Below are positions 4,492 through 26,020 of a stretch of 26,105 nucleotides of DNA, piece after piece. The stretch lies in IMG/VR virus record IMGVR_UViG_3300025115_000359, positions 1-26,105 of that record; one strand, given 5' to 3'. The stretch's first letter is position 1; each line of letters opens with the position of its first letter. Both the position numbers and the translations under genes were made by a program. A model generated the notes under the pieces. It saw only the letters and a list, made by a program, of their open reading frames with translations, was not told the origin of the DNA and did not search any database. Source of the stretch: a virus.

Positions 4492-5432
4492 AGAGAATCC
4501 TTGTTACTGGGGCAGCTGGATACATCGGAAGTGCTGTATGCCACAAGCTACTGGAGCACGGCTACCAAGTCGTCGGGATCGACAACCTGAAATATTCCGA
4601 CCGAGATGCGGTTCCTGTCGGCGCAGACTTCTTTCATCGAGACATCTGCGACTCAGGCTTAGAGCGAAGCGGTGCGTTCTTTCGCATCGACGCCGTGATG
4701 CACCTTGCCGCAGAGTCAGAAATCCCTGTCTGCACCAGCGACCCACTCTTAGCGTTTCGCGTGAACCTTGCTGGAGGCATCAACCTGCTGTCCGCCATGC
4801 AGAAGAACGGATGCAATCGTCTCATTTTCAGTAGCACGGCCGCCGTCTACAGCCCCGATGCGCGGTCCCCGATTATCGAGGGCGCTGCCAAGGAACCGAC
4901 AACTCCCTACGGCGCATCAAAACTCGCCTTTGAACGCGCCTTGGGGTGGTTTCCGAATCTGAGCGCGATCATATTCCGCTACTTCAATGTCTGCGGCGCG
5001 ACAGAGCAAGCGTGGGAACGCCCTATACACCGGACCCGTCTGGTATCCATTGCAATGGACACCGCCTGCAAGATCCGTCCCGAGATGCCGTTGAACGGGA
5101 CCGACTTCGACACGCCCGACGGAACTTGCGTCCGGGATTACCTGCACGTAGACGACGTGGCCGAGGCGCATGTTCTAGCCCTTCAGAACGAGACCATGAC
5201 CGGCGCGTTCAATCTTGGCATCGGCAAGGGCTACTCGAATCGCGAAGTCATTCAAACCGTCGAGCGAGTCACCAAACGCCCTGTCCCTGTCGTCGAATCG
5301 TCCAGGCGGCTCGGCGACCCCGACACGCTGATTGCCGATTCGTCTCTGGCGCGAGCATTTTTGAATTGGAAGCCGAAGTTTACCGACCTTGAGGCCATGA
5401 TCGAAAGCGCATGGAGGTACGAAAACCTATGA
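4488..5432 (+). CDS. galE: NAD-dependent sugar epimerase, UDP-glucose 4-epimerase (GalE) type
   Basis: This 314-residue extended short-chain dehydrogenase starts at a GTG overlapping the previous stop (GTGA). The Rossmann motif TGAAGYIGS lies at residues 7-15. The catalytic set is visible as FSSTAAVYS (about 115-122) and the YxxxK motif (YGASK, about 141-145). The C-terminal half carries the GalE-like RYFNVCGA and a TPDGTCVRDYLHV stretch. GalE-type enzymes interconvert UDP-glucose and UDP-galactose by oxidation and re-reduction at C4. Related family members act on other UDP-hexoses, so the substrate is inferred. It sits between glycosyltransferase fusions and heptose genes, which fits donor-sugar supply for the glycosyltransferases of the operon. 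Confidence 0.85.
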   Translation: MKRILVTGAAGYIGSAVCHKLLEHGYQVVGIDNLKYSDRDAVPVGADFFHRDICDSGLERSGAFFRIDAVMHLAAESEIPVCTSDPLLAFRVNLAGGINLLSAMQKNGCNRLIFSSTAAVYSPDARSPIIEGAAKEPTTPYGASKLAFERALGWFPNLSAIIFRYFNVCGATEQAWERPIHRTRLVSIAMDTACKIRPEMPLNGTDFDTPDGTCVRDYLHVDDVAEAHVLALQNETMTGAFNLGIGKGYSNREVIQTVERVTKRPVPVVESSRRLGDPDTLIADSSLARAFLNWKPKFTDLEAMIESAWRYENL

Positions 5433-6346
5433 CCACAGCGTCTATCAGAGTCCCCCTCAGAATCACCCTTGCCGGTGGCGGGTCCGACAACCCGCAGTAC
5501 GCCCGTCGATTCGGCGGATTCTTCATCAGCGCCACCATCGACAAGTACCTCACGGTATCGCTGCATCAATGCAGAAATGGTGTATGTCAGTGCCGAAACA
5601 AGGAGCGAGTTGACCTGCGGTACTCCAGGGCGGCTGGCATTCCATTGAACATCTACGCCACAGCCAAGAGTGACGTGCCAAAAGGCAGCGGCCTTGGCGC
5701 AAGCGGCGCTTTGATGGTTGCCCTGCTGAAGCTGCGACACCCGGAACTCGAAGGCGAAGAGCTTGCTGGAGCCGCCTATAACATTGAACGCTACAGCGTC
5801 GGCAACCCCACCGGCATCCAAGATGCCTGGATTGCTTCTCTGGGAGGATGCCACGCCTTCTGGCTCGGCCGCCACGGTCAAGTTCGCACTGAACCAATTG
5901 CGCTACCAGAAGACCTTGCAGCAAGACTTGCCATGTTCTCCACGGGGCGATCAAGGGATGCCGCTACGATACTATCTGCTCAGTCATCCAACTTTGTCAG
6001 CGACTGCGACGCGACTGAGGCCATGCACGAAATCGTAGATATTGGAATCAAGACGCACCTTGATTTAGTAGGCAATGGCGCACGCGGGATCGGGCCACTA
6101 ATGCACGCTCATTGGCTTGCTAAACGAAAGACTGGACCAACATCTACTGACCAGATTGACACATGGTACGAACTGGCCCGAGAAAATGGGGCAGAGGGCG
6201 GCAAGTGCATTGGCGCTGGAGCGGGAGGCTACATGCTGTTCGTCTGTCCGCTCGACAAACGAGAACATCTGATTGCCACCATGTCGAACGCGGGCCTTGT
6301 TCACACCCCGTTTCAATTCGTCAACCAGGGAATCCAAACATGCTAG
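5429..6346 (+). CDS. hddA: GHMP kinase, D-glycero-D-manno-heptose 7-phosphate 1-kinase type
   Basis: This is a 305-residue GHMP-family kinase. I chose the ATG at 5429, which overlaps the galE stop (ATGA) and has GGAGG 11 bases upstream. The HddA-like N-terminus reads RVPLRITLAGGGSD (about residues 7-20), followed by GGFFISATIDKY. The GHMP phosphate-binding loop is KGSGLGASGA (about 84-93), and the C-terminal glycine-rich motif GGKCIGAGAGGYML (about 258-271) is typical of HddA. HddA phosphorylates heptose 7-phosphate at C1 to give the alpha-1,7-bisphosphate, in the GDP-heptose branch. The GmhA and GmhB genes that act just before and after it lie immediately downstream, which makes this assignment strong. 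Confidence 0.88.
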   Translation: MTTASIRVPLRITLAGGGSDNPQYARRFGGFFISATIDKYLTVSLHQCRNGVCQCRNKERVDLRYSRAAGIPLNIYATAKSDVPKGSGLGASGALMVALLKLRHPELEGEELAGAAYNIERYSVGNPTGIQDAWIASLGGCHAFWLGRHGQVRTEPIALPEDLAARLAMFSTGRSRDAATILSAQSSNFVSDCDATEAMHEIVDIGIKTHLDLVGNGARGIGPLMHAHWLAKRKTGPTSTDQIDTWYELARENGAEGGKCIGAGAGGYMLFVCPLDKREHLIATMSNAGLVHTPFQFVNQGIQTC

Positions 6347-6912
6347 AAATCGCCATTCAGTCTCTCAGAAACATCGACGTTCAATCTGTGGAATCAGTCG
6401 TCTATCACCTTGCCGCACTACGGCAGCGAAGTGGACGGCTCTTTTGTATCGGCAACGGTGGAGGCATGTCCCATGCGTCACATGCAGCATCCGATTTCCG
6501 AACGCTCTGTGGAATCGACGCCCACTCAGTTGGCGACAATCAAGCCTACATCACCGCCGCCGCCAACGACCACGGCTGGGACAATGCCTACACGCTATGG
6601 CTTGACTCCTTTACGCTCGGCAGCAAGGACGCTGTGCTCGTGTTCTCAGTTGGAGGCGGCTCTAAGGAACCGCCCGTCAGCCTCAACATCGTCAAAGCCC
6701 TTTCATTTGCTGACCGGCAGGACGCAACGATCCTCGCAATTGTTGGCCGCAACGGAGGATTCGCTGCAACCGTTGCAGAGACCACAATCTTGATTCCCGT
6801 TTCGGACCCCGAGTTCGTGACGCCAGCGACAGAGGGAATCCAGAGCGTCGTAGCTCACTGGCTCGTATCAAAACTGTCAACCAAAAAGGCCAAATGGGAA
6901 TCTCTTGCATGA
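6340..6912 (+). CDS. gmhA: SIS-domain sedoheptulose 7-phosphate isomerase (GmhA-like)
   Basis: This is a 190-residue single SIS-domain protein, close to GmhA length. The start at 6340 overlaps the hddA stop by seven bases. The sugar-phosphate loop GNGGGMSHASHAASDF lies at residues 38-53 and matches the GNGGSxxxAxHxA pattern of GmhA. A second SIS strand reads VLVFSVGGGS, and TEGIQSVVAHWL keeps the Gln and His that serve isomerisation in the family. GmhA converts sedoheptulose 7-phosphate to D-glycero-D-manno-heptose 7-phosphate, the substrate of the adjacent HddA-like kinase. One difference from the textbook motif is GGGM in place of GGSA. Confidence 0.87.
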   Translation: MLEIAIQSLRNIDVQSVESVVYHLAALRQRSGRLFCIGNGGGMSHASHAASDFRTLCGIDAHSVGDNQAYITAAANDHGWDNAYTLWLDSFTLGSKDAVLVFSVGGGSKEPPVSLNIVKALSFADRQDATILAIVGRNGGFAATVAETTILIPVSDPEFVTPATEGIQSVVAHWLVSKLSTKKAKWESLA

Positions 6913-7397
6913 CTCTTGCGAAGTGCGCATTTCTTGACCGAGACGGCGTCCTTGTGGAGGCATTCCCCGAAGGGAGATCCACGCGAGGGCCGAGAACCCT
7001 CGACGAAGTGAAGGTCCTTCCTGGCGCGCAAGAGGCGTGCGACATACTCCGAGACGCTGGATACAAGACTGCAATCATAACGAACCAGCCTGACGTGTCT
7101 CGCGGACGAATGACAAAATACCTCGCCGAGCAGATCAACGCCTGGGTAATGCACTCGCTCGCCATCGACGCATTTTACATGTGTACACATGACAACGGGC
7201 ACTGCTCCTGTCGCAAGCCTGCGCCTGGTTTGCTCTATGCCGCCGCCTATGAAATGAACCTCTGCCTTGCAGATTCCATAATGTTCGGAGACCGACCAAC
7301 CGATGAGCAGGCTGCAATTGCTGCCGGTGTTCGCTTCATCGGAGTTCCCACTAACCACGGATTACTGGAGTGCGTAACATGCTTGCTGAACACTTGA
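6909..7397 (+). CDS. gmhB: HAD-family D-glycero-D-manno-heptose 1,7-bisphosphate 7-phosphatase (GmhB-like)
   Basis: This is a 162-residue HAD-IIIA protein. Two in-frame ATGs exist; I chose 6909 because it overlaps the gmhA stop as ATGA. Motif I FLDRDGVL gives nucleophile and acid-base aspartates at D10 and D12, motif II is IITNQPDV, and the late acidic motif is FGDRPTDEQAA. A zinc-binding loop CTHDNGHCSCRKP (C92, H94, C99, C101) is diagnostic of the GmhB/HisB-N group. The enzyme removes the 7-phosphate of heptose 1,7-bisphosphate, leaving the 1-phosphate for nucleotidyl transfer. It follows the isomerase and kinase in pathway order, and its last 19 bases overlap the transaldolase gene. Confidence 0.88.
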   Translation: MTLAKCAFLDRDGVLVEAFPEGRSTRGPRTLDEVKVLPGAQEACDILRDAGYKTAIITNQPDVSRGRMTKYLAEQINAWVMHSLAIDAFYMCTHDNGHCSCRKPAPGLLYAAAYEMNLCLADSIMFGDRPTDEQAAIAAGVRFIGVPTNHGLLECVTCLLNT

Positions 7398-8083
7398 AAG
7401 TCTTCGCTGACACAGCCGACGTAGCCCAAATCAAAGCCGCGTTTCAAATCCCAGGCGTTCTGGGCGTCACGACCAATCCCAGTCTTGCAAAAAAGGCTGG
7501 CGTGAGCAACTACAAGGAGTTCATTCGCGAGGTCATTTCCATCGCTGGTGACAAACCCGCCAGCTTCGAGGTCATCGCCGACGAGTTTGACGAAATGAAG
7601 CGACAAGCCCTCTGGATCGCCGATCAAGGGCAGTCAGTCTATGTCAAGATCCCCATCACCAACACTCGCGGTGAGTCGTCCCTACCGCTAGTTGCGGAAT
7701 TGGGCAAAGAAGGCGTCTGTATCAACCTGACAGCCGTGTTCACCATCCAGCAGATCACCGCAGCGTGCGAGGCCCTAAGCGACACCGCGCCATCCATCCT
7801 CTCGGTCTTTTGTGGACGGATCAGTGACGCAGGCCAGAGATGCAAGCCAATTGTTCGCTCGGCAGTGCATCTCGCCAAAAGGAAGCCTATTGAAGTGCTG
7901 TGGGCATCCGCACGCGAGCCGTACAATATCATCCAGGCACAGGAGTGCGGCTGCCATATCGTCACGCTCTTTCCTGAGTTCATCAAGAAAATGAGTTTGT
8001 TCGGCAAAGACCTGAATCAGTTCTCGCTGGAGACGGTCCAAATGTTCTACCGGGATGCCGTTTCCTCTGGGTTTGACCTATGA
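7379..8083 (+). CDS. tal: Transaldolase, small TalC/Fsa-type
   Basis: This is a 234-residue protein of the short transaldolase/fructose-6-phosphate aldolase family. I use the ATG at 7379, with GGAG eight bases upstream, rather than the GTG at 7370. Family features are FADTAD (active-site Asp D11), GVTTNPS (residues 29-35), the Schiff-base lysine in VYVKIP (K90), INLTAVFTIQQ, and VLWASAREPYN. Transaldolase moves a dihydroxyacetone unit between sugar phosphates and can yield sedoheptulose 7-phosphate, the entry substrate of the adjacent heptose genes. This suggests that the phage diverts host pentose-phosphate carbon into heptose (inference). A fructose-6-phosphate aldolase activity cannot be excluded. 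Confidence 0.87.
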   Translation: MLAEHLKVFADTADVAQIKAAFQIPGVLGVTTNPSLAKKAGVSNYKEFIREVISIAGDKPASFEVIADEFDEMKRQALWIADQGQSVYVKIPITNTRGESSLPLVAELGKEGVCINLTAVFTIQQITAACEALSDTAPSILSVFCGRISDAGQRCKPIVRSAVHLAKRKPIEVLWASAREPYNIIQAQECGCHIVTLFPEFIKKMSLFGKDLNQFSLETVQMFYRDAVSSGFDL

Positions 8084-8478
8084 CACTGGGGCTTCTTGCC
8101 AGCGCGTTCAGTCCGTTTCCACACCCAGGCCACGTTTGGGCAATGGAACAAGCTATCGAGGCAGGTGCCTGCACTGGCATCATTGCCGCGCTTCACGAAG
8201 ACCCTTCCCTAGAGCGCGGCAAACCAAAGCCCGTCCTGACCCTTGAAGAGCGAGGATACCTACTGTCCCAACTGAGGCACGTCTACGAAGTCATTCCGTA
8301 CCAGACCGAGCAAGACCTGTACGACCTGATCCTTGCCGTGCGCCCGTCCGTGCGAATCCTTGGAAATGACTACATTGGCGAGCCTTATGTTGGCGATGAC
8401 CTGCCTATCCCTGTGTTCTACGCAAGAAGGCGAGACGACTGGAGCGGGACTCGATTCCGAGAAAGATTGAGGCAATGA
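8080..8478 (+). CDS. Cytidylyltransferase-fold nucleotidyltransferase (TagD / HldE C-terminal type)
   Basis: This 132-residue protein starts at ATGA, overlapping the transaldolase stop. It has the nucleotidyltransferase signature SAFSPFPHPGH, with the HxGH motif at residues 15-18. The segment RILGNDYIG occupies the usual position of the family's middle motif, and WSGTRFRERL near the C-terminus stands in the place of the ISSTxxRxRI motif. Family members join a sugar or alcohol phosphate to a nucleotide: HldE-C makes ADP-heptose and TagD makes CDP-glycerol. Given its neighbours, heptose 1-phosphate is the likely acceptor (inference). The base it uses, A or C, cannot be told by eye. The protein is about the size of TagD and stands alone, without a fused HldA kinase. 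Confidence 0.82.
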   Translation: MTLGLLASAFSPFPHPGHVWAMEQAIEAGACTGIIAALHEDPSLERGKPKPVLTLEERGYLLSQLRHVYEVIPYQTEQDLYDLILAVRPSVRILGNDYIGEPYVGDDLPIPVFYARRRDDWSGTRFRERLRQ

Positions 8479-9515: not shown

Positions 9516-9634
9516 GGGACCGTGGCGGAATGGTAGACGCCGGAGCGAACATAGCTGACGCTCACCGCCAGTTGATACCCTGCTACTTGGCAGGTTCGGC
9601 GAAACTGGTGCAGGTTCGAGTCCTGCCGGTCCCG
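9516..9634 (+). tRNA. tRNA-like element A (Leu-like ends, abnormal anticodon region)
   Basis: The acceptor stem GGGACCG (9516-9522) pairs perfectly with CGGTCCC (9627-9633). TG and a Leu-type D-arm (GCG, ten-base loop with GG, CGC) follow, and the T-arm is canonical (GCAGG, TTCGAGT, CCTGC, 9610-9626). The middle is 69 bases instead of the roughly 32 of a normal class II tRNA. It holds a GAGCG/CGCTC stem (9543-9547 with 9559-9563) with an 11-base loop, then a CCAGTT/AACTGG stem (9568-9573 with 9603-9608) enclosing CCTGC/GCAGG. GCAGGTTCG occurs twice, at 9590 and 9610, which suggests an internal duplication. No CCA is encoded. It may be a degenerate tRNA, a tRNA with an insertion, or a tRNA mimic. 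Confidence 0.5.
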
Positions 9635-9646
9635 CTTGGATTAGTC

Positions 9647-9739
9647 AGCGCGGAAGCCGAGAGGCGACCTTGGAACTCAGCAGAAAGCCATAACGCGGCT
9701 AGAGGTGTTGCCGCTGCCGGTGAGAATCCGGCCCGCGCT
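9647..9739 (+). ncRNA. tRNA-sized structured element B
   Basis: AGCGCGG (9647-9653) pairs perfectly with CCGCGCT (9733-9739). Directly inside the 3' strand is a T-arm-like hairpin, GCCGG, loop TGAGAAT, CCGGC (9716-9732). Before it lies GCGGC/GCCGC with a ten-base loop. The size of 93 bases and the acceptor-plus-T-arm layout are those of a class II tRNA, but no D-arm or seven-base anticodon loop can be folded and the T-loop lacks TTC. The loop fits the general U-N-N-R-A T-loop pattern. It also resembles the P5/L5 hairpin of cobalamin riboswitches, but their other conserved blocks are not seen. Confidence 0.35.
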
Positions 9740-9913
9740 GCTTACAGATAGCACCTACCGCACGAGGCGTCTGTTGACGCGAGTATTCCTCGGAACGACA
9801 CGGGGTACAGCCAGCAAGGATCGCGGTTAGCGATTGCAAGCCACGACACCGCTGGAGTCCGGCGAATAAGTCAATAACCGGGATCAGTCGTGACAGCCGG
9901 GAGAGACCGGCGT

Positions 9914-10004
9914 GGGACCGCAACGGTAGCCGAGTGGTTTGGCAGACCATACCGCGAATCAAGTAGCGGGCCAACGGCGGAGGGTTCGAGTCCCTCCGGT
10001 CCCA
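9914..10004 (+). tRNA. tRNA-like element C (class II size, abnormal anticodon region)
   Basis: GGGACCG (9914-9920) pairs with CGGTCCC (9997-10003), extendable to nine pairs with the flanking GT and AC. The T-arm is canonical: GAGGG, TTCGAGT, CCCTC (9980-9996). A Ser/Leu/Tyr-like D-arm is present (GCC, GAGTGGTTT, GGC, 9929-9943), but six extra bases separate it from the acceptor, and CGGTA (9924-9928) can pair with TACCG further on. The anticodon position shows CCGC/GCGG around a ten-base loop instead of five pairs around seven bases. The acceptor is identical in sequence to that of element A, so the two may be related by duplication. No CCA is encoded. Confidence 0.45.
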
Positions 10005-10009
10005 CTATG

Positions 10010-10040
10010 CCCGGCGGAACTCCGCTCGGGTGCAGCCGCA
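10010..10040 (+). repeat. 31-base leader repeat, copy 1
   Basis: This copy forms a hairpin, CCCGGCGG, AACT, then CCGCTCGGG with one bulged T, followed by TGCAGCCGCA. It matches the copy at 10381-10411 at 28 of 31 positions. Both copies stand in the 5' leader of a small gene, about 27-30 bases before its start codon, so a regulatory or RNA-processing role is likely (inference). Confidence 0.7.
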
Positions 10041-10380: not shown

Positions 10381-10411
10381 CCCGGCGGTACTCCGCTCGG
10401 GTGCAACCGTA
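10381..10411 (+). repeat. 31-base leader repeat, copy 2, with a competing upstream arm
   Basis: This copy differs from copy 1 at three positions. Here CACCCGAG at 10368-10375 is perfectly complementary to CTCGGGTG at 10396-10403, inside the repeat, so the repeat's own hairpin competes with a second, longer-range pairing. The element sits 27 bases before the ATG of the zinc-ribbon gene at 10438. Confidence 0.65.
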
Positions 10412-11828: not shown

Positions 11829-12241
11829 ACGCGGTCATCATGGCAATGGCCATGCTCGGGCAGATACCACAGTTCGGACCACAATCCCAATGGGGATGGG
11901 ACGGTAGCGTCTACAACAATTCTGGATGGGGATATCGGAAACTATACGGGAATGGGTATTACCCTCCACAGGTCTTTATGCCGAAAATGGCGTTTGTGAG
12001 GCCACCGAGCCCCACGAACATTGTCGCAGCGCAAATGAGGGCGTCTAAGGCGTCTAGGCCGCGTTCCCTGTCGTCTGGGACAGTTTCGGGTCTGATGGAG
12101 CTTGCTGCTGAAAAAGAGCGCCTATGGGCCATCCTGCTCGAATCTGGGCCTGAAGACAAGGACGAAGCAAGGGAAGAGTATTGGGCCGCCAAGAGGCGAC
12201 TGGACAGGGCCAGGGTTGTGGCGTCAAAAGAACTGCGTTAG
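11825..12241 (+). CDS. Hypothetical protein with aromatic/Gly N-terminus and coiled-coil C-terminus
   Basis: This is a 138-residue protein with its start at ATGA over the previous stop. It begins with a short hydrophobic segment ([12 protein letters not shown]) followed by a stretch rich in Gly, Trp, Tyr and Asn (about residues 17-50), like a structural or low-complexity region. The C-terminal 55 residues are a charged helix ([15 protein letters not shown], then [18 protein letters not shown]) likely to form a coiled coil. It might be a virion or scaffold component, but no structural gene is nearby, so I give no function. Confidence 0.55.
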
Positions 12242-12272
12242 TTTCTCTGGATCTTCAGGAAGGAATCTTGCA

Positions 12273-12455
12273 ATGCTTGTCCTCTCAAGGCTTATGAATG
12301 AGGCGATTCAGATCGGCGACGACATTGTCATTCGGGTTGTTGAAATCCGAGGCAATAAAGTCAGAATCGGTATTGACGCTCCCGCTGAAACTCCGGTTCA
12401 CCGTATGGAAGTGTACCACGCCATCAAACGCAAACAGGAGCGAGACGGCAAATGA
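12273..12455 (+). CDS. csrA: CsrA/RsmA-type post-transcriptional regulator
   Basis: This 60-residue protein begins MLVLSR. The CsrA core is intact: ILVLSR-type strand 1 with L4, [21 protein letters not shown], and PVHRMEVY, with Arg at position 44. L4 and R44 are the RNA-contacting residues in the well-studied family members. CsrA dimers bind GGA motifs in mRNA leaders and block or stabilise messages. The ribosome binding site AGGAAGG (12257-12263) itself carries GGA-like sequence, so autoregulation is possible (inference). A phage copy could reset host carbon metabolism or control phage messages. It lies among small unknown genes and overlaps a 23-codon frame. Confidence 0.9.
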
Positions 12456-17642: not shown

Positions 17643-18404
17643 ATGCGGAGCAGTCACCACTATGTCATCGGGAAGTCGCATGAAGTCTGCCAAGACTACT
17701 GCGCTTCGTGCGAAGGCTTTGCGGCCCTTAGCGACGGCTGCTCCGTCGTCAAGGACCGAGACGGGAAGCAAATCGACGCCCACACGGACGTGGGCGCTCG
17801 ATTGCTCGTACACGCGGCGATTCACTACAGAAACGTGAGTGGCTTCAGTGAGATTCAGTTGCTCTCAGTGCAACGAGCCTGCGCGCAAGCACTGCTACTT
17901 GGAACAGAAACCGATTCCGTGTCGGCAACGCTTGCCATACTCAGATCGAACGGAAGAAATTTAGCAGCCTGCATTATCGGAGACGGAGTTCTTGCTTGCA
18001 GAAACAGAGAATCAAAGCAGTGGTCGGTGTACGCAAATCATTACGATCCAGCACCATACTACCCACGCTACCTCATTTCCGGCATCGACTTCAATCCCGC
18101 CCTCAACGTCGATTTAGTTACTGGGTATGACGTTGGCCTTGGCAGCATTTCAAATCATTGTCAAATCCTGTGGCCACAGCACAGCGACATGATAGTTGCC
18201 ATGTCTGACGGCGCGTTCTCGTTCACAAAGAACGGCGCATCCGTCCCGTTCGACAAGGAACTTGCTCTGCGACTTCTGGACTTCAGACGCATGGGAGGTA
18301 AGTTCATGGTCCGTCACTTACGGGGTGTCCTCAAGGAATTGGAGCAAGATGGCATTGTCAATCAGGATGATTTGTCGATGATTGCCCTCTACGACGGGGA
18401 CTGA
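17643..18404 (+). CDS. PP2C-type serine/threonine protein phosphatase
   Basis: This is a 253-residue protein whose ATG follows a GAAAGGA site. PP2C (PPM family) motifs occur in order: CQDYC near residue 18 (place of the N-x-D motif), ALSDGCS with D31-G32, HTDVGARLLVHAA, SVSATLAI, CIIGDGVLACR, IVAMSDGAFSF near 184-194, and NQDDLSMIAL close to the C-terminus. The metal-binding aspartates are therefore present and the enzyme should be active. It acts in the cytoplasm; no membrane segment is seen. Its stop is two bases before the start of a protein kinase gene, so it most likely reverses that kinase's phosphorylation. Confidence 0.88.
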   Translation: MRSSHHYVIGKSHEVCQDYCASCEGFAALSDGCSVVKDRDGKQIDAHTDVGARLLVHAAIHYRNVSGFSEIQLLSVQRACAQALLLGTETDSVSATLAILRSNGRNLAACIIGDGVLACRNRESKQWSVYANHYDPAPYYPRYLISGIDFNPALNVDLVTGYDVGLGSISNHCQILWPQHSDMIVAMSDGAFSFTKNGASVPFDKELALRLLDFRRMGGKFMVRHLRGVLKELEQDGIVNQDDLSMIALYDGD

Positions 18405-18406
18405 AG

Positions 18407-20074
18407 ATGCCAACCTACTACATCAAGGGCGGAACGTCCCGCGTCACACTAACTGACAGAGACTTCGTGGCAGCGGGTGGCGAGAAGAAGGTGTTTGCCA
18501 AGGGCGGTACAGCTTACTGTGTCTACCACAACCCCAAGCAAGCAATTCCTATCGGCAAGATTCGAGAACTCGCTGGACTGAATCACCCAGGCGTCGTTCT
18601 CCCCACGGCAGAGCTTCTCGACTCTGGTAAGCAGCACTGCGGCGAGGTGATGAAATTCGTGGACGACAGCTACGCGCCGAAGTCGCCCGACATCAAGCCA
18701 CTGGTCCTGTGCCAGCTGTTCACCAATGCCTTCCGCCGCAAGCAAGGCATTGACAACTCAGGCGTAGCAAAGATCACCGACCAAATTCTGGAGATCGTTC
18801 GCCACTGCCATGCCAGCAACGTCGTGCTCGTGGACCCCAACGAAACCAACTGGCTGGTCCGACACGACCTGAAGTTCACCTACTTGATCGACACAAGTTG
18901 CGTCCAGACTGCCAGCTATCCAGGAACTGCAATCAAGCCAGCGATTCGAGACTGGTCGGCGCAGTCGTTCACGCCTGACTCTGACTGGTACAGCATCGCC
19001 GTGGTGCTCGGGTGGTTGTGGGCGGGGATTCACCCATACACGGCCTTCCACCCCGACTGGAAGCATCTGGACACCAATGCGGCCATGATCCCGAGAATGA
19101 AGGCGCACCACTCATTCTTTCGCCCAGGGACAGAATTCAATCGCGCCTGCCGACCGCTGTCCGACATTCCAACTGGACTTCGAGGCTGGCTGATAGACGT
19201 GTTAGACAATGGCAAGCGAGGCCCAGCCCCAGATGCGTGCGGAGCAGTTTCGGTGACAATCAGCGCGGCCCAAGTGCCATTACAGGCAGCAAGCTCGGGT
19301 CTTGTAGAACTAAAGCAGATCGACATGCGCGACGACGACATCACTGGAGTCTTCGGACCTATTGTGAATACAGACCCGTTCCTGTACGTGTTCACACCAC
19401 TGCAAGGTACTGCGATTGCCGTTGGCGTCGAGAATGGAAGCCTGGTCCTCATTGACGACATGGGAGATCCAGTTGATATTGCCGTCAACGCTAAGCGAGT
19501 ATTTGTCAGTGGAGGCAGGGCTTATGCCGTTGGCGACACCGCTGTTTCCGAGGTGGTCTTCAACGAGGTCAACGGAACAATCCGAGCCACTGTCCGCAAG
19601 GTCGGATCAATCGCAGACCTTCCAGCAACGAGAACATACCCAGGATGTGTGATTCAAAATCTGCTGGGCAAGTACCTGCTCAGCATCTTCCCTGAGTCTG
19701 GTAAGTGCTACCAGCACCAGCTATCCGAACTTGAAGGGTGGCAGATTCTGGATGCGAAGTACGAGTCAGGCGCGTTCGTCGCCTGTGCTGAACAACACGG
19801 CCAGTACAAGATGCTACTATACCGCATTCAAAAGAACACTAAGGATTGCATCGAAATCTGCCATGAACACGGAGACGTGAATTTCGCAGTGACAGACAGA
19901 GGTATCGTTGCCGTTATGGTGCCAAATGGTACGCTCCGTCTATGCAGCAACCGACCTGGGGCTCTCAACGTAAAGCGGGTCCAGTTTCCCGAGCCCGACA
20001 TGACCTTGTTCTCGCGGGACAGCAAGATTGTTGGGGCGCTGGGACGGAAGTTGTACGATATCATCCTGCGCTAA
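18407..20074 (+). CDS. Divergent Ser/Thr protein kinase with C-terminal beta-rich domain
   Basis: This is a 555-residue protein. The kinase-like part covers about residues 1-290: GGEKKVF stands for the Gly-rich loop, HPGVVLPTAEL for the helix C region, HASNVVLVDPNETNWLV (about 135-151) for the catalytic loop with its D-x4-N spacing, and LIDTS near 160 for the DFG motif. DSDWYSIAVVLGWLW resembles helix F with its conserved Asp. HRD and DFG are both altered, so activity is likely but not certain. Residues 310-555 form repeated short strands (for example YVFTPLQGTAIAV, VFVSGGRAYAV and LLGKYLLSIF) like a beta-propeller sensor. The convergent terminase gene overlaps its end by four bases. Confidence 0.75.
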   Translation: MPTYYIKGGTSRVTLTDRDFVAAGGEKKVFAKGGTAYCVYHNPKQAIPIGKIRELAGLNHPGVVLPTAELLDSGKQHCGEVMKFVDDSYAPKSPDIKPLVLCQLFTNAFRRKQGIDNSGVAKITDQILEIVRHCHASNVVLVDPNETNWLVRHDLKFTYLIDTSCVQTASYPGTAIKPAIRDWSAQSFTPDSDWYSIAVVLGWLWAGIHPYTAFHPDWKHLDTNAAMIPRMKAHHSFFRPGTEFNRACRPLSDIPTGLRGWLIDVLDNGKRGPAPDACGAVSVTISAAQVPLQAASSGLVELKQIDMRDDDITGVFGPIVNTDPFLYVFTPLQGTAIAVGVENGSLVLIDDMGDPVDIAVNAKRVFVSGGRAYAVGDTAVSEVVFNEVNGTIRATVRKVGSIADLPATRTYPGCVIQNLLGKYLLSIFPESGKCYQHQLSELEGWQILDAKYESGAFVACAEQHGQYKMLLYRIQKNTKDCIEICHEHGDVNFAVTDRGIVAVMVPNGTLRLCSNRPGALNVKRVQFPEPDMTLFSRDSKIVGALGRKLYDIILR

Positions 20075-21627
20075 TGCCGACTGAAATTCAACGCACGATG
20101 AACCCTTGGCATGGAGCCGCCATCCAGGAACGTCGGCGTATTGCAGCCAGCACCCATACCTGGCCCGTACTTCATGGCTGCCCTCGACTGGCCACTCACA
20201 GCTAGAATGTCGCCAGGATTCGCCACGCTACGTTCCTGGATGCGATTGAAAGCGCCACTAAGGCTATCCACCTCATCCATTCGCTTTGTCTCCGGGAAGC
20301 CCGCGACGATACTTAGCCAATTTCCCACGTCCTGCTCACGCCACATTCCATTGCGGAGGACGTATACATTTCCTGCTTCTACCTGGGCACTAACAGGTCT
20401 CGCTCGGACAATCTTGGCAAACCCCGGAACCTTCTGTCCTTCCTTCGTCTGGGTTCCGCGGGACCGCACTGGAATGTCCTTGTACACGGGAACCCCAGCC
20501 AACATGCGAATTTGTTGCTGGACCTGGTTCTTTCCAGCCGAACCGCCCTCCTGCTCGACGTACACGATGACCTGATTGTCGTACTTGTACTTGTCTTGCT
20601 GAGCCACTTCACACATCATGCCATCACGAACCATTGCAGACCACTGTCCAGAGACAACGTCCTCGACGTAGAACTTGCCGTCTGGAGTCTTGGCCAGAAG
20701 CGTCCCTACAGTCCAGCACCCAGAATCTTCTGTTCCAGCCAAATCCCAATACCTAACTCGGAGCGCATCAGTAGGAACCGAATCGCAGAACTTGAACCAT
20801 TCGCGACGGAACATCAATCCTTCGATATCAACGAACTCGCCGCCAAGCTCCTGCTCTGCCAACAGAGTGTTATACTGACTGCGAAGCGTGTCGTAGAACT
20901 CTTCAGGAAGAAACGGGCTTTCAGTCGTGGCCGCCGTCACCAGCGACACGCGATCCTTCACGCGATACCATTGGCCGCCAATGTCCACGTAGTCGCCCGA
21001 GCGATACAGGCCGGGGGTCTTCTTCCTGTCAGCGCCAAAGATCGCAGCCTCGGCCCCATCACTGGCCTCAAAGAACACATCAAACGTCCAGTGCGTCCTG
21101 CCCTTTGGCGTGAAGGTCATAAAACACGGCCCCATCACAGGCCCTTGAGGTGTCATGTAACGCAAGCAAGGCATGGCGTACAAATACGCCTCCTTGGGCA
21201 TGATACTCGCCTCATCAAACCAGATACCAGCCTTGCTCGAACCACGCAGCTTTTCAGGACGCTCAGCCCCCTTGAACACAACATTAGTCATCCCGCCATC
21301 GAACGTCTTGATCCATGCCTTATGGATCGGATGCCGGACGCCACGAACCCAGACGCCAAGATCCTGCGCCGTTTCCTCAAAGCACGGCCAAGTCGTGTCC
21401 TCGATCACGTTCGCATCAGGGGAAATGACCATCCAAGGCTGCTTTTTCCTGGCGGCGTAGATCAACTTGATGCAACCGATCTTCGTCTTCCCGATCCCGC
21501 GACCGCCAACAAAGCCCTGAATTGAGCAGTCCAAGTTAAAGAACAACTGCTGCTTGTTGTATATTTTTACAAATCGCCTGCGGTCTTTTGCCTGCTCAGG
21601 CGTGACCGTTATTGCGCTATCTGACAT
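20071..21627 (-). CDS. terL: Phage terminase large subunit
   Basis: This is a 518-residue DNA-packaging motor protein. I chose the ATG at 21627, with GGAGG six bases upstream; the frame extends a further 81 codons without a ribosome binding site. Walker A is GGRGIGKTK (41-49) and Walker B AGIWFDEA (133-140). The C-terminal RNase H-like nuclease shows RYWDLAGTEDSG (first Asp), VYVEQEGGSAGKN (middle Glu) and MDEVDSLSGAFN (last Asp). It cuts concatemeric DNA and drives it into proheads. It is encoded opposite to most of the window. No portal gene follows in this window; the 3' neighbour is the convergent kinase. Confidence 0.95.
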   Translation of the reverse strand: MSDSAITVTPEQAKDRRRFVKIYNKQQLFFNLDCSIQGFVGGRGIGKTKIGCIKLIYAARKKQPWMVISPDANVIEDTTWPCFEETAQDLGVWVRGVRHPIHKAWIKTFDGGMTNVVFKGAERPEKLRGSSKAGIWFDEASIMPKEAYLYAMPCLRYMTPQGPVMGPCFMTFTPKGRTHWTFDVFFEASDGAEAAIFGADRKKTPGLYRSGDYVDIGGQWYRVKDRVSLVTAATTESPFLPEEFYDTLRSQYNTLLAEQELGGEFVDIEGLMFRREWFKFCDSVPTDALRVRYWDLAGTEDSGCWTVGTLLAKTPDGKFYVEDVVSGQWSAMVRDGMMCEVAQQDKYKYDNQVIVYVEQEGGSAGKNQVQQQIRMLAGVPVYKDIPVRSRGTQTKEGQKVPGFAKIVRARPVSAQVEAGNVYVLRNGMWREQDVGNWLSIVAGFPETKRMDEVDSLSGAFNRIQERSVANPGDILAVSGQSRAAMKYGPGMGAGCNTPTFLDGGSMPRVHRALNFSRH

Positions 21628-21665
21628 AGGACTACCTCCATCGCCGATTATCTGCCAAACCCACG

Positions 21666-21694
21666 TTGCAATCAAGACGTTTTTGGGTAATAAT
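21666..21694 (+). promoter_or_regulatory. Sigma70-like promoter for the multi-HTH gene
   Basis: TTGCAA at 21666-21671 (four of six -35 matches) is followed after 17 bases by AATAAT at 21689-21694 (five of six -10 matches). It lies in the 97-base gap between the divergent terminase and HTH genes and points at the gene starting at 21725. Confidence 0.5.
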
Positions 21695-21724
21695 GGGTGT
21701 GTACAATTCATTGGAAGGGCCGAT

Positions 21725-22348
21725 ATGCCAAGATCGTACAACAGGGTTCTTGTTCGAGGAAAAACGATCAGTGAATGGTCTGAAATCCTTGGAATCAAGC
21801 TCTTTACCGCCTGGATGAGATACCGGAGGGGGACGCTCGAAGCAAGCATCGACGGCAAGACCTTTCGCACAAAGCTGTTTTACAATGGCTTGTCAGTAAA
21901 AGACATTCAGGAACGACTTGGCGTATGCTCCGCATCGGCATACAAATACATCCAAGACGGCACAGTTGGTGCAAGGCTAAGTGGGAAGCCGATTCCAAGA
22001 AAGAATCCTCCACCGCCAGTCATAATCGACAACATGACCACTGCTGACTGCCAAAAGGCGCTTGGCGGTGTAACGAGAGAACGGGTGCGGCAGCTCAAAG
22101 AAAACGGCCTCTTGAGGCGTAGACTGAATGGCATCAACTGTCTTGAAGTCGCTAGAGAGTCAATGAACAAGCAGTTTCAGGAGCGACGAAAGGCTATTCG
22201 AGACCAGAGAATGCCCGGCGAGTCAATAAGCCAGCTCGCCAAGAGATTGAAGATGCCTTACTCGACAGCGCTATACGCATTCGATGGCAGGGTTCCATTT
22301 GCAGAAGAGCGAAAGCAGTTGAAAGCGACCCAGGGCATGGAGGGATGA
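21725..22348 (+). CDS. DNA-binding protein with about four helix-turn-helix units
   Basis: This 207-residue protein has its start set by GGAAGGG upstream of the ATG at 21725. Four helix-turn-helix-like segments follow one another: TISEWSEILGIKLFTAWMRY (about 18-37), LSVKDIQERLGVCSASAYKY (about 57-76), TTADCQKALGGVTRERVRQL (about 105-124) and SISQLAKRLKMPYSTALYAF (about 168-187). Short basic or Pro-rich linkers separate them. It is divergent from the terminase large subunit, so a small-terminase or packaging-site role is possible. A transcription regulator acting on the shared gap is the other reading. I cannot choose between them. Confidence 0.65.
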   Translation: MPRSYNRVLVRGKTISEWSEILGIKLFTAWMRYRRGTLEASIDGKTFRTKLFYNGLSVKDIQERLGVCSASAYKYIQDGTVGARLSGKPIPRKNPPPPVIIDNMTTADCQKALGGVTRERVRQLKENGLLRRRLNGINCLEVARESMNKQFQERRKAIRDQRMPGESISQLAKRLKMPYSTALYAFDGRVPFAEERKQLKATQGMEG

Positions 22349-22845: not shown

Positions 22846-23019
22846 ATGACACTCCGCGACTACTTCGCTGCGACTGCGCTGCCTGCGATCCTAAATGCCA
22901 TGTTCGCTCTCGGCAGCGAGAAGCGATACACGTACCAGGAGTCGATCGACAGCGCAGTACAACTGAGCATTTATGCTGCCGACGCCATGTTTGCCGAGCG
23001 GGAAAGGAAGCGCGGTTGA
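22846..23019 (+). CDS. Small phage protein (MTLRDYFAA family)
   Basis: This 57-residue protein has its start placed at 22846, after GGAAG, seven bases upstream. The frame is open to 22747, but the MTLRDYFAATALPAILNAM beginning and the YAADAMFAERE ending match a pattern I know from many small phage and prophage proteins of unknown function. It is helical throughout. Confidence 0.7.
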   Translation: MTLRDYFAATALPAILNAMFALGSEKRYTYQESIDSAVQLSIYAADAMFAERERKRG

Positions 23020-23249
23020 CCGCACCCCTATCCACCCACGAAGCATTTTGCCCCCGCTCGCCGTGGTGGGGCTGGATGCCGTCGCCGGTGGCGTTGGTGC
23101 TGTACGTCTGCGACCGCTGCGGCTGCCGATCTGAACGGCGGGTGTGCGAGTTGTGCGAAGAGGATCTGATTCACCGGGCGGGCGTGGCCGTGAGCCCACG
23201 GAGATGCCATTGGCGTGCGACCCGTGCATTTGGACGCCCGCCCGGATAA
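23016..23249 (+). CDS. Probable small Cys-rich protein with TTG start
   Basis: A TTG at 23016 overlaps the previous stop (TTGA), and GGGAAAGGAAG lies upstream. The frame encodes 77 residues with a zinc-ribbon-like core YVCDRCGCRSERRVCELCEE. That core resembles the 30-residue product of the gene at 23538 (DCRSERRVSELCKE), which supports coding. The N-terminal part contains Trp/Pro-rich sequence and the C-terminus is basic. The TTG start lowers confidence. Confidence 0.45.
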   Translation: MTAPLSTHEAFCPRSPWWGWMPSPVALVLYVCDRCGCRSERRVCELCEEDLIHRAGVAVSPRRCHWRATRAFGRPPG

Positions 23250-23258
23250 TTGGCCCAC

Positions 23259-23282
23259 GAGCGGCAGATGGAGTTGATATGA
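23259..23282 (+). repeat. 24-base start cassette, copy 1
   Basis: GAGCGGCAGATGGAGTTGAT followed by ATGA, beginning exactly 20 bases before the ATG at 23279. It supplies the ribosome binding site GGAG. The same cassette occurs at 23518, 23907 and 25495. Confidence 0.75.
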
Positions 23283-23536
23283 AGCTAACTAAAGCCCAGC
23301 GCGGAGTGCTCCGCTGCCTCGCTGGAGGTTGGATTATGGACGCTACAGGGTGTGACGGGATGAGCGCCGTGCTTGCATTCGGCGCTGGCGTACCGAGCAG
23401 AAACGTGTCCGCACGGACGGTATCTCGGCTGCTGAATGAGGGGATGATTCGGGTGTCGATCGACGGCGTTTCCGATTACGAAATTACTACCCGCGGACTG
23501 CTGGCGATAAAGCATGAGAGCGGCAGAGGGAGTTAA
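23279..23536 (+). CDS. Small winged-helix-like protein
   Basis: This is an 85-residue protein starting inside start cassette copy 1. The sequence MKLTKAQRGVLRCLAGGW, then SARTVSRLLNEGMIRVSIDG and SDYEITTRGLLAIKHE, has the helix-turn-helix-plus-wing layout of small DNA-binding proteins, ending in the common 'T..G...'. A role as a small phage regulator is inferred. The cassette of the next gene starts before its stop. Confidence 0.6.
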   Translation: MKLTKAQRGVLRCLAGGWIMDATGCDGMSAVLAFGAGVPSRNVSARTVSRLLNEGMIRVSIDGVSDYEITTRGLLAIKHESGRGS

Positions 23537-23541
23537 CATGA
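23518..23541 (+). repeat. 24-base start cassette, copy 2
   Basis: GAGCGGCAGAGGGAGTTAAC followed by ATGA, beginning 20 bases before the ATG at 23538. Its first half also encodes the last residues of the winged-helix protein. Confidence 0.75.
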
Positions 23542-23630
23542 CCGACCTGGAACGCGACCTATTGACGCACTGCGGCACCGAAGACTGCCGCTCGGAACGG
23601 CGTGTGTCCGAGTTGTGCAAAGAGACTTGA
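23538..23630 (+). CDS. 30-residue peptide, truncated member of the MTDLERDLLTHCG family
   Basis: The start is in cassette copy 2. The first 13 residues (MTDLERDLLTHCG) are shared with the proteins at 23927 and 25515. The remainder (TEDCRSERRVSELCKET) resembles the Cys-rich core of the protein at 23016. It may be a functional micro-protein with four Cys, or a remnant where two duplicated segments were joined and the rest lost. Confidence 0.45.
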   Translation: MTDLERDLLTHCGTEDCRSERRVSELCKET

Positions 23631-23645
23631 TGAGGGAGTTTGAGC

Positions 23646-23897
23646 GTGAACGACGCAGAAAAGCGGTATTCAATGGTTGGCATGCTGGAAATTCCAGTCA
23701 ACCAGGATGACGTTAAGCGGTGCATCGCTGAGGCACGGCTAGCGCAGTTGTTCGTGCGATCCGAACTAGAACGGATTGCAGCCCACATCAGCGTGATTCA
23801 GCGGTTTTGCAAACATCCAGCAGCCGAGCAGGTTACAGGCAAGGATTACTCCGGATGGTCCTCGACGCTATGCAAGGTGTGTGGACTAGACAGATGA
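23646..23897 (+). CDS. Hypothetical small protein with C-terminal Cys/His cluster
   Basis: This is an 83-residue protein. I prefer the GTG at 23646, seven bases after GAGGGAG; a TTG at 23640 is too close to it. A helical middle (VKRCIAEARLAQLFVRSELERI) is followed by FCKHPAAEQ and LCKVCGLDR, which together could bind zinc. This motif resembles the 'C-x-H-P ... C-x-x-C' tails of small phage proteins. The function is unknown. Confidence 0.55.
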   Translation: MNDAEKRYSMVGMLEIPVNQDDVKRCIAEARLAQLFVRSELERIAAHISVIQRFCKHPAAEQVTGKDYSGWSSTLCKVCGLDR

Positions 23898-23906
23898 CCC
23901 TACCAC

Positions 23907-23930
23907 GAGCGGCATAGGGAGTTGATATGA
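23907..23930 (+). repeat. 24-base start cassette, copy 3
   Basis: GAGCGGCATAGGGAGTTGAT followed by ATGA, beginning 20 bases before the ATG at 23927. Confidence 0.75.
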
Positions 23931-24328
23931 CGACCGACTTGGAACGCGACCTGCTGACGCACTGCGGTAACGAGTCGTGCCTCGCGTGCCAAACGTGCCG
24001 CGACAGGATGGCGGCGGCGTCTTACGAGATTGAGAGGCTCAATGCCGCGCTGGCCGAGGTCCAGGCAGCACGGCGGCGCGGCGATGAGATCGTGGCGGGG
24101 CTGGAGCTGGAACGAGAGCGGCTACAGGCGATAGTTGACGGCGCAGAGGCAGCGAGAGAGGATTACGTGGTCGAGTACGGCTGGAACCACGAAAGAAACC
24201 TAATGGGGTACTGGTATGGGCCGAGGGGCTCATTTGTCAGCGATCGCCTGACATGGGCCGGGACTTCTCGACTAGACGCATGGTTGGCAATCGGAAAAAT
24301 GATTACCGAGAAAGCGAGGGCTTTGTGA
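23927..24328 (+). CDS. MTDLERDLLTHCG-family protein with coiled coil
   Basis: This is a 133-residue protein. After the shared N-terminus come two Cys pairs (ESCLACQTC), the shared segment DRMAAASYEIERL, and a long coiled coil (ERERLQAIVDGAEAARE). The C-terminal 50 residues (WNHERNLMGYWYGP, then SDRLTWAGTSRLDAWLAIG) form a separate small domain. It ends with the shared EKAR residues. The next gene starts at a GTG overlapping its stop. The whole looks assembled from modules found in the neighbouring genes. Confidence 0.65.
   Translation: MTTDLERDLLTHCGNESCLACQTCRDRMAAASYEIERLNAALAEVQAARRRGDEIVAGLELERERLQAIVDGAEAAREDYVVEYGWNHERNLMGYWYGPRGSFVSDRLTWAGTSRLDAWLAIGKMITEKARAL
24308..24320 (+). repeat. 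Gene-junction repeat GAGAAAGCGAGGG, copy 1
   Basis: It encodes the EKAR end of the upstream protein and at the same time provides the purine-rich ribosome binding site of the downstream start at 24325. Related copies lie at 24877, 25065 and 25716. Confidence 0.65.
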
Positions 24329-24894
24329 GTGACCTAAGCAGCAAGTTACGAGCGATCGTCAGCCAGATGCGAGACGGCGCGTTGATGCCGTGCGGCGCAG
24401 TCTATCAGCAGATCCTGGACGCCGCTGATGAGATCGAGCGGCTGCACACCCTATTCGGCGGCCGTTTTCACCTGGACGCAACCTGCGGCTCGTGTGGCGG
24501 GCCGCTGGAGTGCGACAGGGACGCGATTTGCCACAGGTGTACGGACAAGATGGAGATCGAGCGGTTGCGGACTGAACTCGATGAAGCTGGTCACGCAATC
24601 AATCGCCACCTGGAACTGCTGGTTGAGTCACGGCAAGAGACGGTGCGGCTGGAGACGATTGTTGATCCACTACCGAAGACGGCAAATGGTGCGATCATCG
24701 TGCTTGGAAAGACGGAACTATGGGCACGCGATGATTACAGCGACCCTCCGCTAGTGTTTCGGCTTGGGGTTGCAATTTCGCTGTCTGTAGGTGTGGCGAT
24801 GGGGCCGCCAAAAGTAATGGCGGATTCCTCGTCGTTCGTGGATTGCGACCAAACATACTCGACCCGCGAGGTCGCCGAGAAAGCGAGGGGATGA
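24325..24894 (+). CDS. Hypothetical modular protein with zinc ribbon and coiled coil
   Basis: This is a 189-residue protein with a GTG start overlapping the previous stop (GTGA) and GAGGG upstream. It contains LDAADEIERLHTLF, then a zinc ribbon (CGSCGGPLECD, then CHRC), then MEIERLRTELDEAGHAI as a coiled coil. The two EIERL segments echo the neighbouring proteins. The C-terminal part (TANGAIIVLGKTELWARDD, later FVDCDQTYSTREVAEKARG) is a separate domain and ends in the shared EKAR. The function is unknown. Confidence 0.6.
   Translation: MSDLSSKLRAIVSQMRDGALMPCGAVYQQILDAADEIERLHTLFGGRFHLDATCGSCGGPLECDRDAICHRCTDKMEIERLRTELDEAGHAINRHLELLVESRQETVRLETIVDPLPKTANGAIIVLGKTELWARDDYSDPPLVFRLGVAISLSVGVAMGPPKVMADSSSFVDCDQTYSTREVAEKARG
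24877..24890 (+). repeat. Gene-junction repeat GAGAAAGCGAGGGG, copy 2
   Basis: It ends the upstream frame (AEKARG) and supplies the ribosome binding site for the overlapping start at 24891. Confidence 0.65.
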
Positions 24895-25085
24895 TGACGA
24901 ACGAACTAATTGGATGCGACGGTCCATGTGTAGTTATCACAGCATGGTGCCCTGACTGCGACCGAGCGACGAAGCATGTCCTAATTTCACAGACGTGCCG
25001 TGAGTGCTGCGAGTGCGGGGAGTTGTCTGCGGATTTAACGCAGCATCTAACGACCGAGGCAGCGGAGAAAGCGAGGGCGAGATGA
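24891..25085 (+). CDS. Small Cys-rich protein
   Basis: This 64-residue protein starts at ATGA over the previous stop; a second in-frame ATG follows at 24894. It has Cys in CDGPC, CPDCDR and CRECCECGE, enough for one or two zinc sites. It ends LTTEAAEKARAR, the shared C-terminal module. The function is unknown. Confidence 0.55.
   Translation: MMTNELIGCDGPCVVITAWCPDCDRATKHVLISQTCRECCECGELSADLTQHLTTEAAEKARAR
25065..25077 (+). repeat. Gene-junction repeat GAGAAAGCGAGGG, copy 3
   Basis: It encodes EKAR at the end of the Cys-rich protein and supplies the ribosome binding site for the start at 25082. Confidence 0.65.
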
Positions 25086-25324
25086 TTCTGAAAGACCCAT
25101 TAGACCGAATGGCTGCTCGGCTTGCCGCGAGCACGTTATACGCACTGGAGCAGGACGAGGACACGTTTGGCTTGCTATGGCACATCGTCGGTCTAAACCA
25201 CACAGACCTGGCGCTGGTCCGAAACAGACTGCTGATTATCGCCAATAGGCTCGAATCACAAAGTGGCCTTCCGAAAAGGATGGTGGAATGGAAGGAGCGA
25301 CTGCAATGCGAATCCCAAACCTAG
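25082..25324 (+). CDS. Hypothetical helical protein
   Basis: This is an 80-residue protein starting at ATGA over the previous stop. It is helical throughout (MAARLAASTLYALEQDEDTF, later ALVRNRLLIIANRLESQ), with no Cys cluster and no recognised family. Its last 19 bases overlap a frame that begins at 25306 with its own AAGGAG site. Confidence 0.55.
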   Translation: MILKDPLDRMAARLAASTLYALEQDEDTFGLLWHIVGLNHTDLALVRNRLLIIANRLESQSGLPKRMVEWKERLQCESQT

Positions 25325-25486
25325 TCACCGGCGTCACGGCCCGCCGTGATTGCGAAGTCGCTGCACCGATCCGTAGTGAGCATGTGGCGAGAATACGGCG
25401 TGCCGTGGGCGTTTTGCTCGGGGCGGCGGCTGGCAGAGATTACGACGTTTCGTTTTTTTGAAAGTTTCTGGAAGCATCGGGATTGA
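25306..25486 (+). pseudogene. Probable frameshifted small HTH gene
   Basis: An ATG at 25306, with AAGGAG seven bases upstream, opens a 51-codon frame beginning MRIPNLVTGVTARR and ending at a TGA at 25459-25461. From about 25346 a second frame reads VIAKSLHRSVVSMWREYGVP, a good helix-turn-helix, and continues as FCSGRRLAEITTFRFFESFW to a stop at 25486, but it has no ribosome binding site of its own. Joining the two with a one-base shift near 25345 gives a single sensible small DNA-binding protein. I therefore read this as one gene broken by a frameshift, or a sequencing error. A T7 run (25453-25459) lies near the first stop. Confidence 0.4.
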
Positions 25487-25494
25487 CCGGTGCA

Positions 25495-25518
25495 GAGCGG
25501 CAGGGGGATCTGACATGA
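25495..25518 (+). repeat. 24-base start cassette, copy 4
   Basis: GAGCGGCAGGGGGATCTGAC followed by ATGA, beginning 20 bases before the ATG at 25515. It is the most divergent of the four copies. Confidence 0.7.
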
Positions 25519-25736
25519 CAGACCTGGAACGCGACCTGCTGACGCACTGCGGCAGTCTCCGCGATCGAATGGCGGCAGCGTCTTACGAGATCGAGCGGCT
25601 CACCAGCGAGCGAGACGAAGCGCAAGCGATTGCGATCGACCTATACAGATTTCTCGCGTACCATGAGGCTACGCCAGACATAGACGATAGCTATGGATGG
25701 TTGCGCGAGGCCGCAGAGAAAGCGAGTGGAGAATGA
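25515..25736 (+). CDS. MTDLERDLLTHCG-family protein, short form
   Basis: This is a 73-residue protein. It joins the shared N-terminus directly to RDRMAAASYEIERL, lacking the Cys segment of the paralogue at 23927, and then has its own middle (SERDEAQAIAIDLYRFLAYH) and the shared EAAEKASGE end. The DNA of the first 70 or so bases is closely similar to that at 23927-24040 with the Cys part removed. The function is unknown. Confidence 0.65.
   Translation: MTDLERDLLTHCGSLRDRMAAASYEIERLTSERDEAQAIAIDLYRFLAYHEATPDIDDSYGWLREAAEKASGE
25716..25728 (+). repeat. Gene-junction repeat GAGAAAGCGAGTG, copy 4
   Basis: It encodes the EKAS end of the upstream protein and precedes the GGAG ribosome binding site of the start at 25733. 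Confidence 0.6.
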
Positions 25737-26020
25737 CGCAGAAAGAAAAAATACTATCCGATACGCAGGTGCCGCCTGGCTGGGGGGTTATCTGCGCGTT
25801 TTGCGAACACACGCTACCAGATGAGGAAAAGTACATTCCGTTCCCCCCTGCTACGGCCTGCAAAAAGCTCAAGTACGACAGAGGCGGATACGACAGATCA
25901 ACATACCCGCCGACATACATCACGCCAGCGCCGATTTTCGATCTGCGGCGATATGTGGATGGGTCTGAGTCGTGTCCGCGATATGAGGCGGCAAGCGAGG
26001 GACAGATCGTGCCGTGCTGA
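25733..26020 (+). CDS. Hypothetical protein
   Basis: This is a 95-residue protein starting at ATGA over the previous stop. It has one CxxC (ICAFCEH) near residue 22 and a Tyr/Pro-rich centre (KYDRGGYDRSTYPPTYITP) followed by FDLRRYVDGSESCPRYE. No family is recognised. Its last bases overlap the start of a methyltransferase-like fragment. Confidence 0.55.
   Translation: MTQKEKILSDTQVPPGWGVICAFCEHTLPDEEKYIPFPPATACKKLKYDRGGYDRSTYPPTYITPAPIFDLRRYVDGSESCPRYEAASEGQIVPC

Follow-up and report, generated by a model that had tools for sequence, protein, structure and literature searches.

Short sequences reused at the starts of different genes are already known from a few other phages. Start Associated Sequences (SAS/ESAS) occur in the cluster K mycobacteriophages, including the right arm of TM4 (PMC3203893), and SAS-like motifs occur in the Microbacterium cluster EF phages (PMC7302621); what SAS do has been described as still awaiting experimental verification (PMC12699233). 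PeT/PeSL mobile regulatory cassettes of T4-type phages are summarized in an account that cites Arbiol 2010 and Comeau 2014 (PMC4503421). For mosaic phage genomes in general, two models have been put forward: recombination targeted to short boundary sequences, or illegitimate recombination whose products are then sifted by selection (PMC3233612).

Here we describe a virus record of 26,105 bases in IMG/VR, the whole of which we call the window, in which a 20-nt leader (leader A) precedes four start codons. Like SAS, leader A is a short asymmetric repeat that lies in the ribosome-binding position before genes. It is also reused before different gene families, although with only two families here this likeness is weak. 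It differs from SAS in sequence, no copy lying within two mismatches of the consensus GGGATAGGAGCCC, and in arrangement: SAS are found in 11-19 copies along half a genome, whereas leader A has 4 copies in 2.3 kb, mostly on paralogues. SAS follow an upstream gap of >50 bp and half of them carry 17-bp inverted repeats (ESAS); the intergenic gaps upstream of leader A measure 1-29 nt and hold no such repeats. Since leader A has neither the sequence of SAS nor their gaps and inverted repeats, we do not file it as a SAS. Like the PeT/PeSL cassettes, which have been suggested to aid gene shuffling (PMC4503421), it is short, conserved and located where genes meet, but PeSL as characterized in that account combine an early promoter with a stem-loop terminator, and neither was detected at leader A. 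It likewise resembles conserved boundary sequences (PMC3233612) as a short shared gene-border sequence that could target recombination, except that those cases rest on comparing related phages and leader A on one phage's own array. Unlike a mobile genetic element, it does not occur as dispersed copies at unrelated sites, all copies lying within 23259-25518.

The phage contig and its repeated gene junctions

The window is a tailed-phage contig whose right end carries small accessory genes arrayed in tandem. The terminase large subunit is encoded on the minus strand (20071-21870; Pfam Terminase_6N E=8e-16, PHROG 979), and the window also encodes a single-strand binding protein, CsrA (12102-12455, plus strand, the gene lying within 12273-12455; Pfam E=7e-23), a PP2C-like phosphatase that adjoins a weakly kinase-like 555-aa protein (17643-20074, plus strand) and a sugar-modification cluster (3-8478, plus strand). 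The cluster contains a methyltransferase, a glycosyltransferase, an NAD-epimerase, a GHMP kinase, a HAD phosphatase, a transaldolase-like protein, a cytidylyltransferase and, by eye, a probable SIS-type isomerase, and is reminiscent of nucleotide-heptose synthesis. A 731-aa protein without a Pfam family (2296-4491, plus strand) is related, at 34-37% identity, to proteins of Virus Rctr41k, which came from a DAMO/AAA enrichment, and of IMGVR_UViG_3300009506_000012. Two tRNA-like 3' ends (GGTTCGAGTCC...GGTCCC) lie at 9613 and 9983, within 9540-10010 on the plus strand, where neither ARAGORN nor Rfam made a call, and a 29-nt repeat on the same strand starts at 10010 and again at 10381 (second copy 10381-10409). 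The array itself consists of small plus-strand genes whose proteins are Cys-rich and coiled-coil; none of those scanned reached the Pfam cut-off, and their PHROG matches, to groups without an assigned function, were weak (E 0.026 or worse).

Leader A reads GAGCGGCANNGGGAGTTGAT. Its first eight bases, GAGCGGCA, occur at 23259, 23518, 23907 and 25495 (copies 1 to 4), each exactly 20 nt 5' of an ATG (23279, 23538, 23927 and 25515), so that leader and start codon together occupy 23259..23281, 23518..23540, 23907..23929 and 25495..25517 on the plus strand. The original prediction had these coordinates and this distance right. It had also placed GGAG and ATGA in every copy; ATGA is indeed present in all four, whereas the Shine-Dalgarno sequence of copy 4 reads GGGGGATC (GGGGGA) in place of GGAG. 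In copy 2 the same bases encode the end of the upstream gene, ESGRGS-stop. Exact matches to GAGCGGCA number five over both strands of the 26,105 bases, four of them being the leader A copies. The six pairs of copies are identical at 15-18 of 20 positions, copies 1 and 3 at 18. Among plus-strand ATGs in the window there are nine leader pairs at least 15/20 alike, six of which are contributed by the four copies of leader A, whereas 60 dinucleotide shuffles yielded 0.5 such pairs on average and never more than 4. A scan that tolerated small offsets and considered only ATGs opening at least 25 codons returned 11 edges where shuffles averaged 0.33. The octamer GAGCGGCA, which lies outside the Shine-Dalgarno core, is invariant while 7 of the 12 remaining leader positions vary (p about 0.01 for an 8-mer picked by eye for its invariance); with that selection in mind, the pattern hints that the leader may be under selection beyond ribosome binding.

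Upstream of the leader, similarity falls to chance: the 22 nt preceding GAGCGGCA align no better than random 22-mers from the region (p 0.43-1.0), apart from a CCAC common to copies 1 and 3. Homology extending upstream to the preceding stop codon (GATAA/GATGA/GATTGA) had seemed plausible by eye and was dropped, as the alignment scores were at background. We also rejected a reading of leader A as the remains of a gene's coding end (ER[QH]x[ED]L[IT]-stop): one frame is open in all four copies, but its substitutions lack a coding pattern. The leaders contain no matches to a sigma-70-like promoter, their predicted RNA folding is in no way unusual, terminator-like sites are at chance level and on the opposite strand, and no inverted repeat or conserved element was found upstream of leader A. 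Downstream, the match of copy 1 to the others ends after ATGA, whereas copies 2-4 continue to match as a 61-nt DNA repeat.

A second repeated junction, overlooked in the original prediction, is present in the same array. Junction B consists of GAGAAAGCGAGGG plus a start codon at four further genes; its bases code for EKAR at the C-terminal end of one gene's product while supplying the Shine-Dalgarno sequence of the gene that follows. All four copies are on the plus strand. The first (24307..24327), with GAGAAAGCGAGGG and the EKAR C-terminus, serves a GTG start at 24325; the second (24876..24896) a start at 24891 or 24894; the third (25064..25084) a start at 25082, in an ATGA overlap; and the fourth (25715..25735), degenerate as GAGAAAGCGAGTG, a start at 25733. 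With leader A and junction B both repeated, at least two kinds of gene junction recur within 2.5 kb. At 25990-26007 of the window, AAGCGAGGGACAGAT resembles junction B in another reading frame and may be a decayed copy or a chance match.

Genes behind leader A and a chimeric reading frame

The gene behind copy 1 shows no protein similarity to those behind copies 2-4. Its 85-aa product gives a weak winged-helix/YjhX-like hint (Pfam YjhX E=0.08, under the cut-off), and confidence in its predicted fold was too low for use. The genes behind copies 2-4 are paralogues (E 1e-7 to 1e-14 within the set). All four copies thus have just the leader in common, and three of them share the protein head as well. 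The gene at 23927..24328 (plus strand) encodes 133 aa with a Cys-rich head and a long predicted coiled coil, modelled as a helix over residues 22-93 with pLDDT up to 98 in blocks; its 73-aa paralogue at 25515..25736 (plus strand) is 64% identical to it over 45 aa.

The original prediction had three of the four copies followed by an identical 13-residue N-terminus. Copies 2-4 do share 12 residues plus the Met, except that copy 3 carries an extra Thr (MTTDLERDLLTHCG). Over the 13 shared codons, each pair of copies differs at 3-4 codons, and all of the differences are synonymous; in RDRMAAASYEIERL, found in copies 3 and 4, five codons differ, again all synonymously. Because every difference in the head is synonymous, the N-terminus is selected as protein, as would be expected of duplicated genes under protein selection. 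It is therefore a protein segment conserved among duplicated genes and no passive attachment to a start unit. Gene paralogy explains three of the four leader copies.

The reading frame behind copy 2 has a composite structure. This 30-codon ORF (23538..23630, plus strand) joins the head MTDLERDLLTHCG to the RSERRVxELCxE tail of a small Cys-rich neighbour on the same strand (23016..23249). After the head comes CRSERRVSELCKET, which is homologous to CRSERRVCELCEED of that neighbour (blastp E about 5e-5 within the set); the corresponding segment, 23108-23170, is 78% identical, and the local DNA alignment scores 31.5 where 500 shuffles reached at most 16. A 1-nt gap in this alignment, just before the stop codon of the ORF, suggests a truncated remnant, the truncation probably being due to a 1-nt frameshift. 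The union of the family head with a neighbour's Cys-rich tail is direct evidence of recombination.

Distribution and control genomes

An exact IUPAC pattern for leader A, searched against 2.9 million viral contigs, found no match outside one sister contig, which shares 99.99% identity across 13,994 bases and so is not independent. Elsewhere in the 26 kb window the leader does not occur, its copies being confined to 2.3 kb (23259-25518). Relatives of the array were likewise absent beyond the sister contig among viral contigs (queried with three array proteins, the copy 2-4 protein alignment, the terminase and DNA patterns), genome contigs (queried with the terminase and copy 2-4 alignments) and phage records (blastn/tblastn). 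SAS are further characterized by conservation across related genomes; these searches yielded no relatives in which to compare leader A. The lack of dispersed copies in the window and the contigs speaks against autonomous mobility.

For comparison with other phages, we measured the largest clique of ORF starts, meaning the biggest set in which every leader agrees with every other at 15 or more of 20 positions. This clique numbers four in the window, three in the right arm of TM4 and two in each of lambda, 50 kb of T4 and 50 kb of T5. The offset-tolerant scan recovered 8 SAS in TM4 as a component of 8. In 55 IMG/VR stretches (468 kb) that had been fetched for another reason, the clique value was 0 or 2 in 54 and 3 in the remaining one, IMGVR_UViG_3300044712_000339 (L019). 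A simple leader-clique scan thus picks out the SAS in TM4 plus one more phage contig.

L019 is an unrelated viral contig and not a random pick, having been drawn by a search of viral contigs with the junction B pattern, which returned 56 stretches, most of them with just one match and in unrelated surroundings. In it, GAGAAAGGCGGYGAGTG-ATG stands ahead of three consecutive genes among which no mutual similarity was detected. The leader bases form the in-frame tail of the upstream gene in one case (REKGGE-stop), follow a stop codon in the second and lie in another frame in the third, a variation in context which suggests that what is shared is the leader and not an encoded tail. Taken alone, L019 shows a modest excess of similar leaders (6 edges against a shuffle mean of 1.25 and maximum of 4). 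By eye, a second repeated junction is also present, three further junctions at 5900-6420 (minus strand) carrying GARCGGAAAGAGARGG before the next start.

Origin of the shared leaders

We consider it probable that leader A and its companion junctions arose by duplication and by short-homology or illegitimate recombination within an accessory array, in which junctions bearing a Shine-Dalgarno sequence were retained. The array would have grown and been reshuffled by these processes, its gene junctions (leader A four times, junction B four times) being copied along with the genes, and one copied leader would have landed ahead of an unrelated gene. Such junctions may persist because each holds a Shine-Dalgarno sequence at a working distance from an ATG, so that a newly joined gene would be translated at once. 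The shared leaders, the chance-level similarity before them, the paralogy, the chimeric ORF and the second type of junction are observed directly; how the recombination took place, what the junctions do in translation and that they were retained for this purpose are what we infer from them. Leader reuse in L019 counts in favour of the same reshuffling account. Weighing against it, the collections searched gave no relative of the array, and hence no direct sight of a gene gained or lost between leaders, and the invariance of GAGCGGCA hints at selection on more than ribosome binding.

A possible alternative, though one we think unlikely, is that leader A acts as a regulatory site of the start-associated kind, phage-specific and resembling SAS, bound by a phage or host factor or tuned for translation and selected before chosen genes. 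It matches SAS in position, length and asymmetry and in standing before an unrelated gene, the scan that finds it also recovers SAS in TM4, and GAGCGGCA is invariant outside the Shine-Dalgarno core. The phage, moreover, encodes CsrA, a GGA-binding translational regulator, and ANGGA occurs in three of the four leaders; a regulatory link between the two is conceivable, as speculation. A site of this kind is harder to reconcile with four copies that all lie within 2.3 kb and of which three head paralogues, with the lack of further copies in the window and with the lack of a conserved upstream or inverted-repeat element. We attach still less weight to a bolder version of the recombination account, in which phages of this group would use short phage-specific junctions (two types here, others in L019) as landing pads, recombination at the leaders inserting instantly translated genes, possibly as a CsrA-controlled set.

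The original prediction saw in leader A a mobile or recombining translation-start unit able to bring new genes under a ready ribosome binding site. Part of this holds: the same leader is carried by non-homologous genes, similarity upstream of it is at chance level and the ORF behind copy 2 is recombinant. A mobile cassette that inserts itself ahead of new genes is nevertheless very improbable, given that the leader is not dispersed across the 26 kb window, nor through IMG/VR outside the sister contig, that three of its copies belong to duplicated genes and that no target-site duplication was noticed on reading the sequence. Chance or convergent likeness of good ribosome binding sites is hardly credible even though every copy has a purine-rich Shine-Dalgarno sequence at standard spacing, for all six pairs match at 15-18 of 20 positions, including eight nucleotides that are not Shine-Dalgarno, where shuffles average 0.5 pairs, and neither lambda nor the 50 kb of T4 or of T5 has a clique above two; the shuffles rule out chance similarity unless the host has an unusual 16S 3' end that matches GAGCGGCA.

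It has long been asked how phages acquire single accessory genes already equipped with working expression signals. On the account that we favour, in which duplication and recombination would carry ready-made junctions to new neighbours, this array, with its two repeated junction types and one visible chimeric gene, would be a compact natural example of accessory-gene addition.
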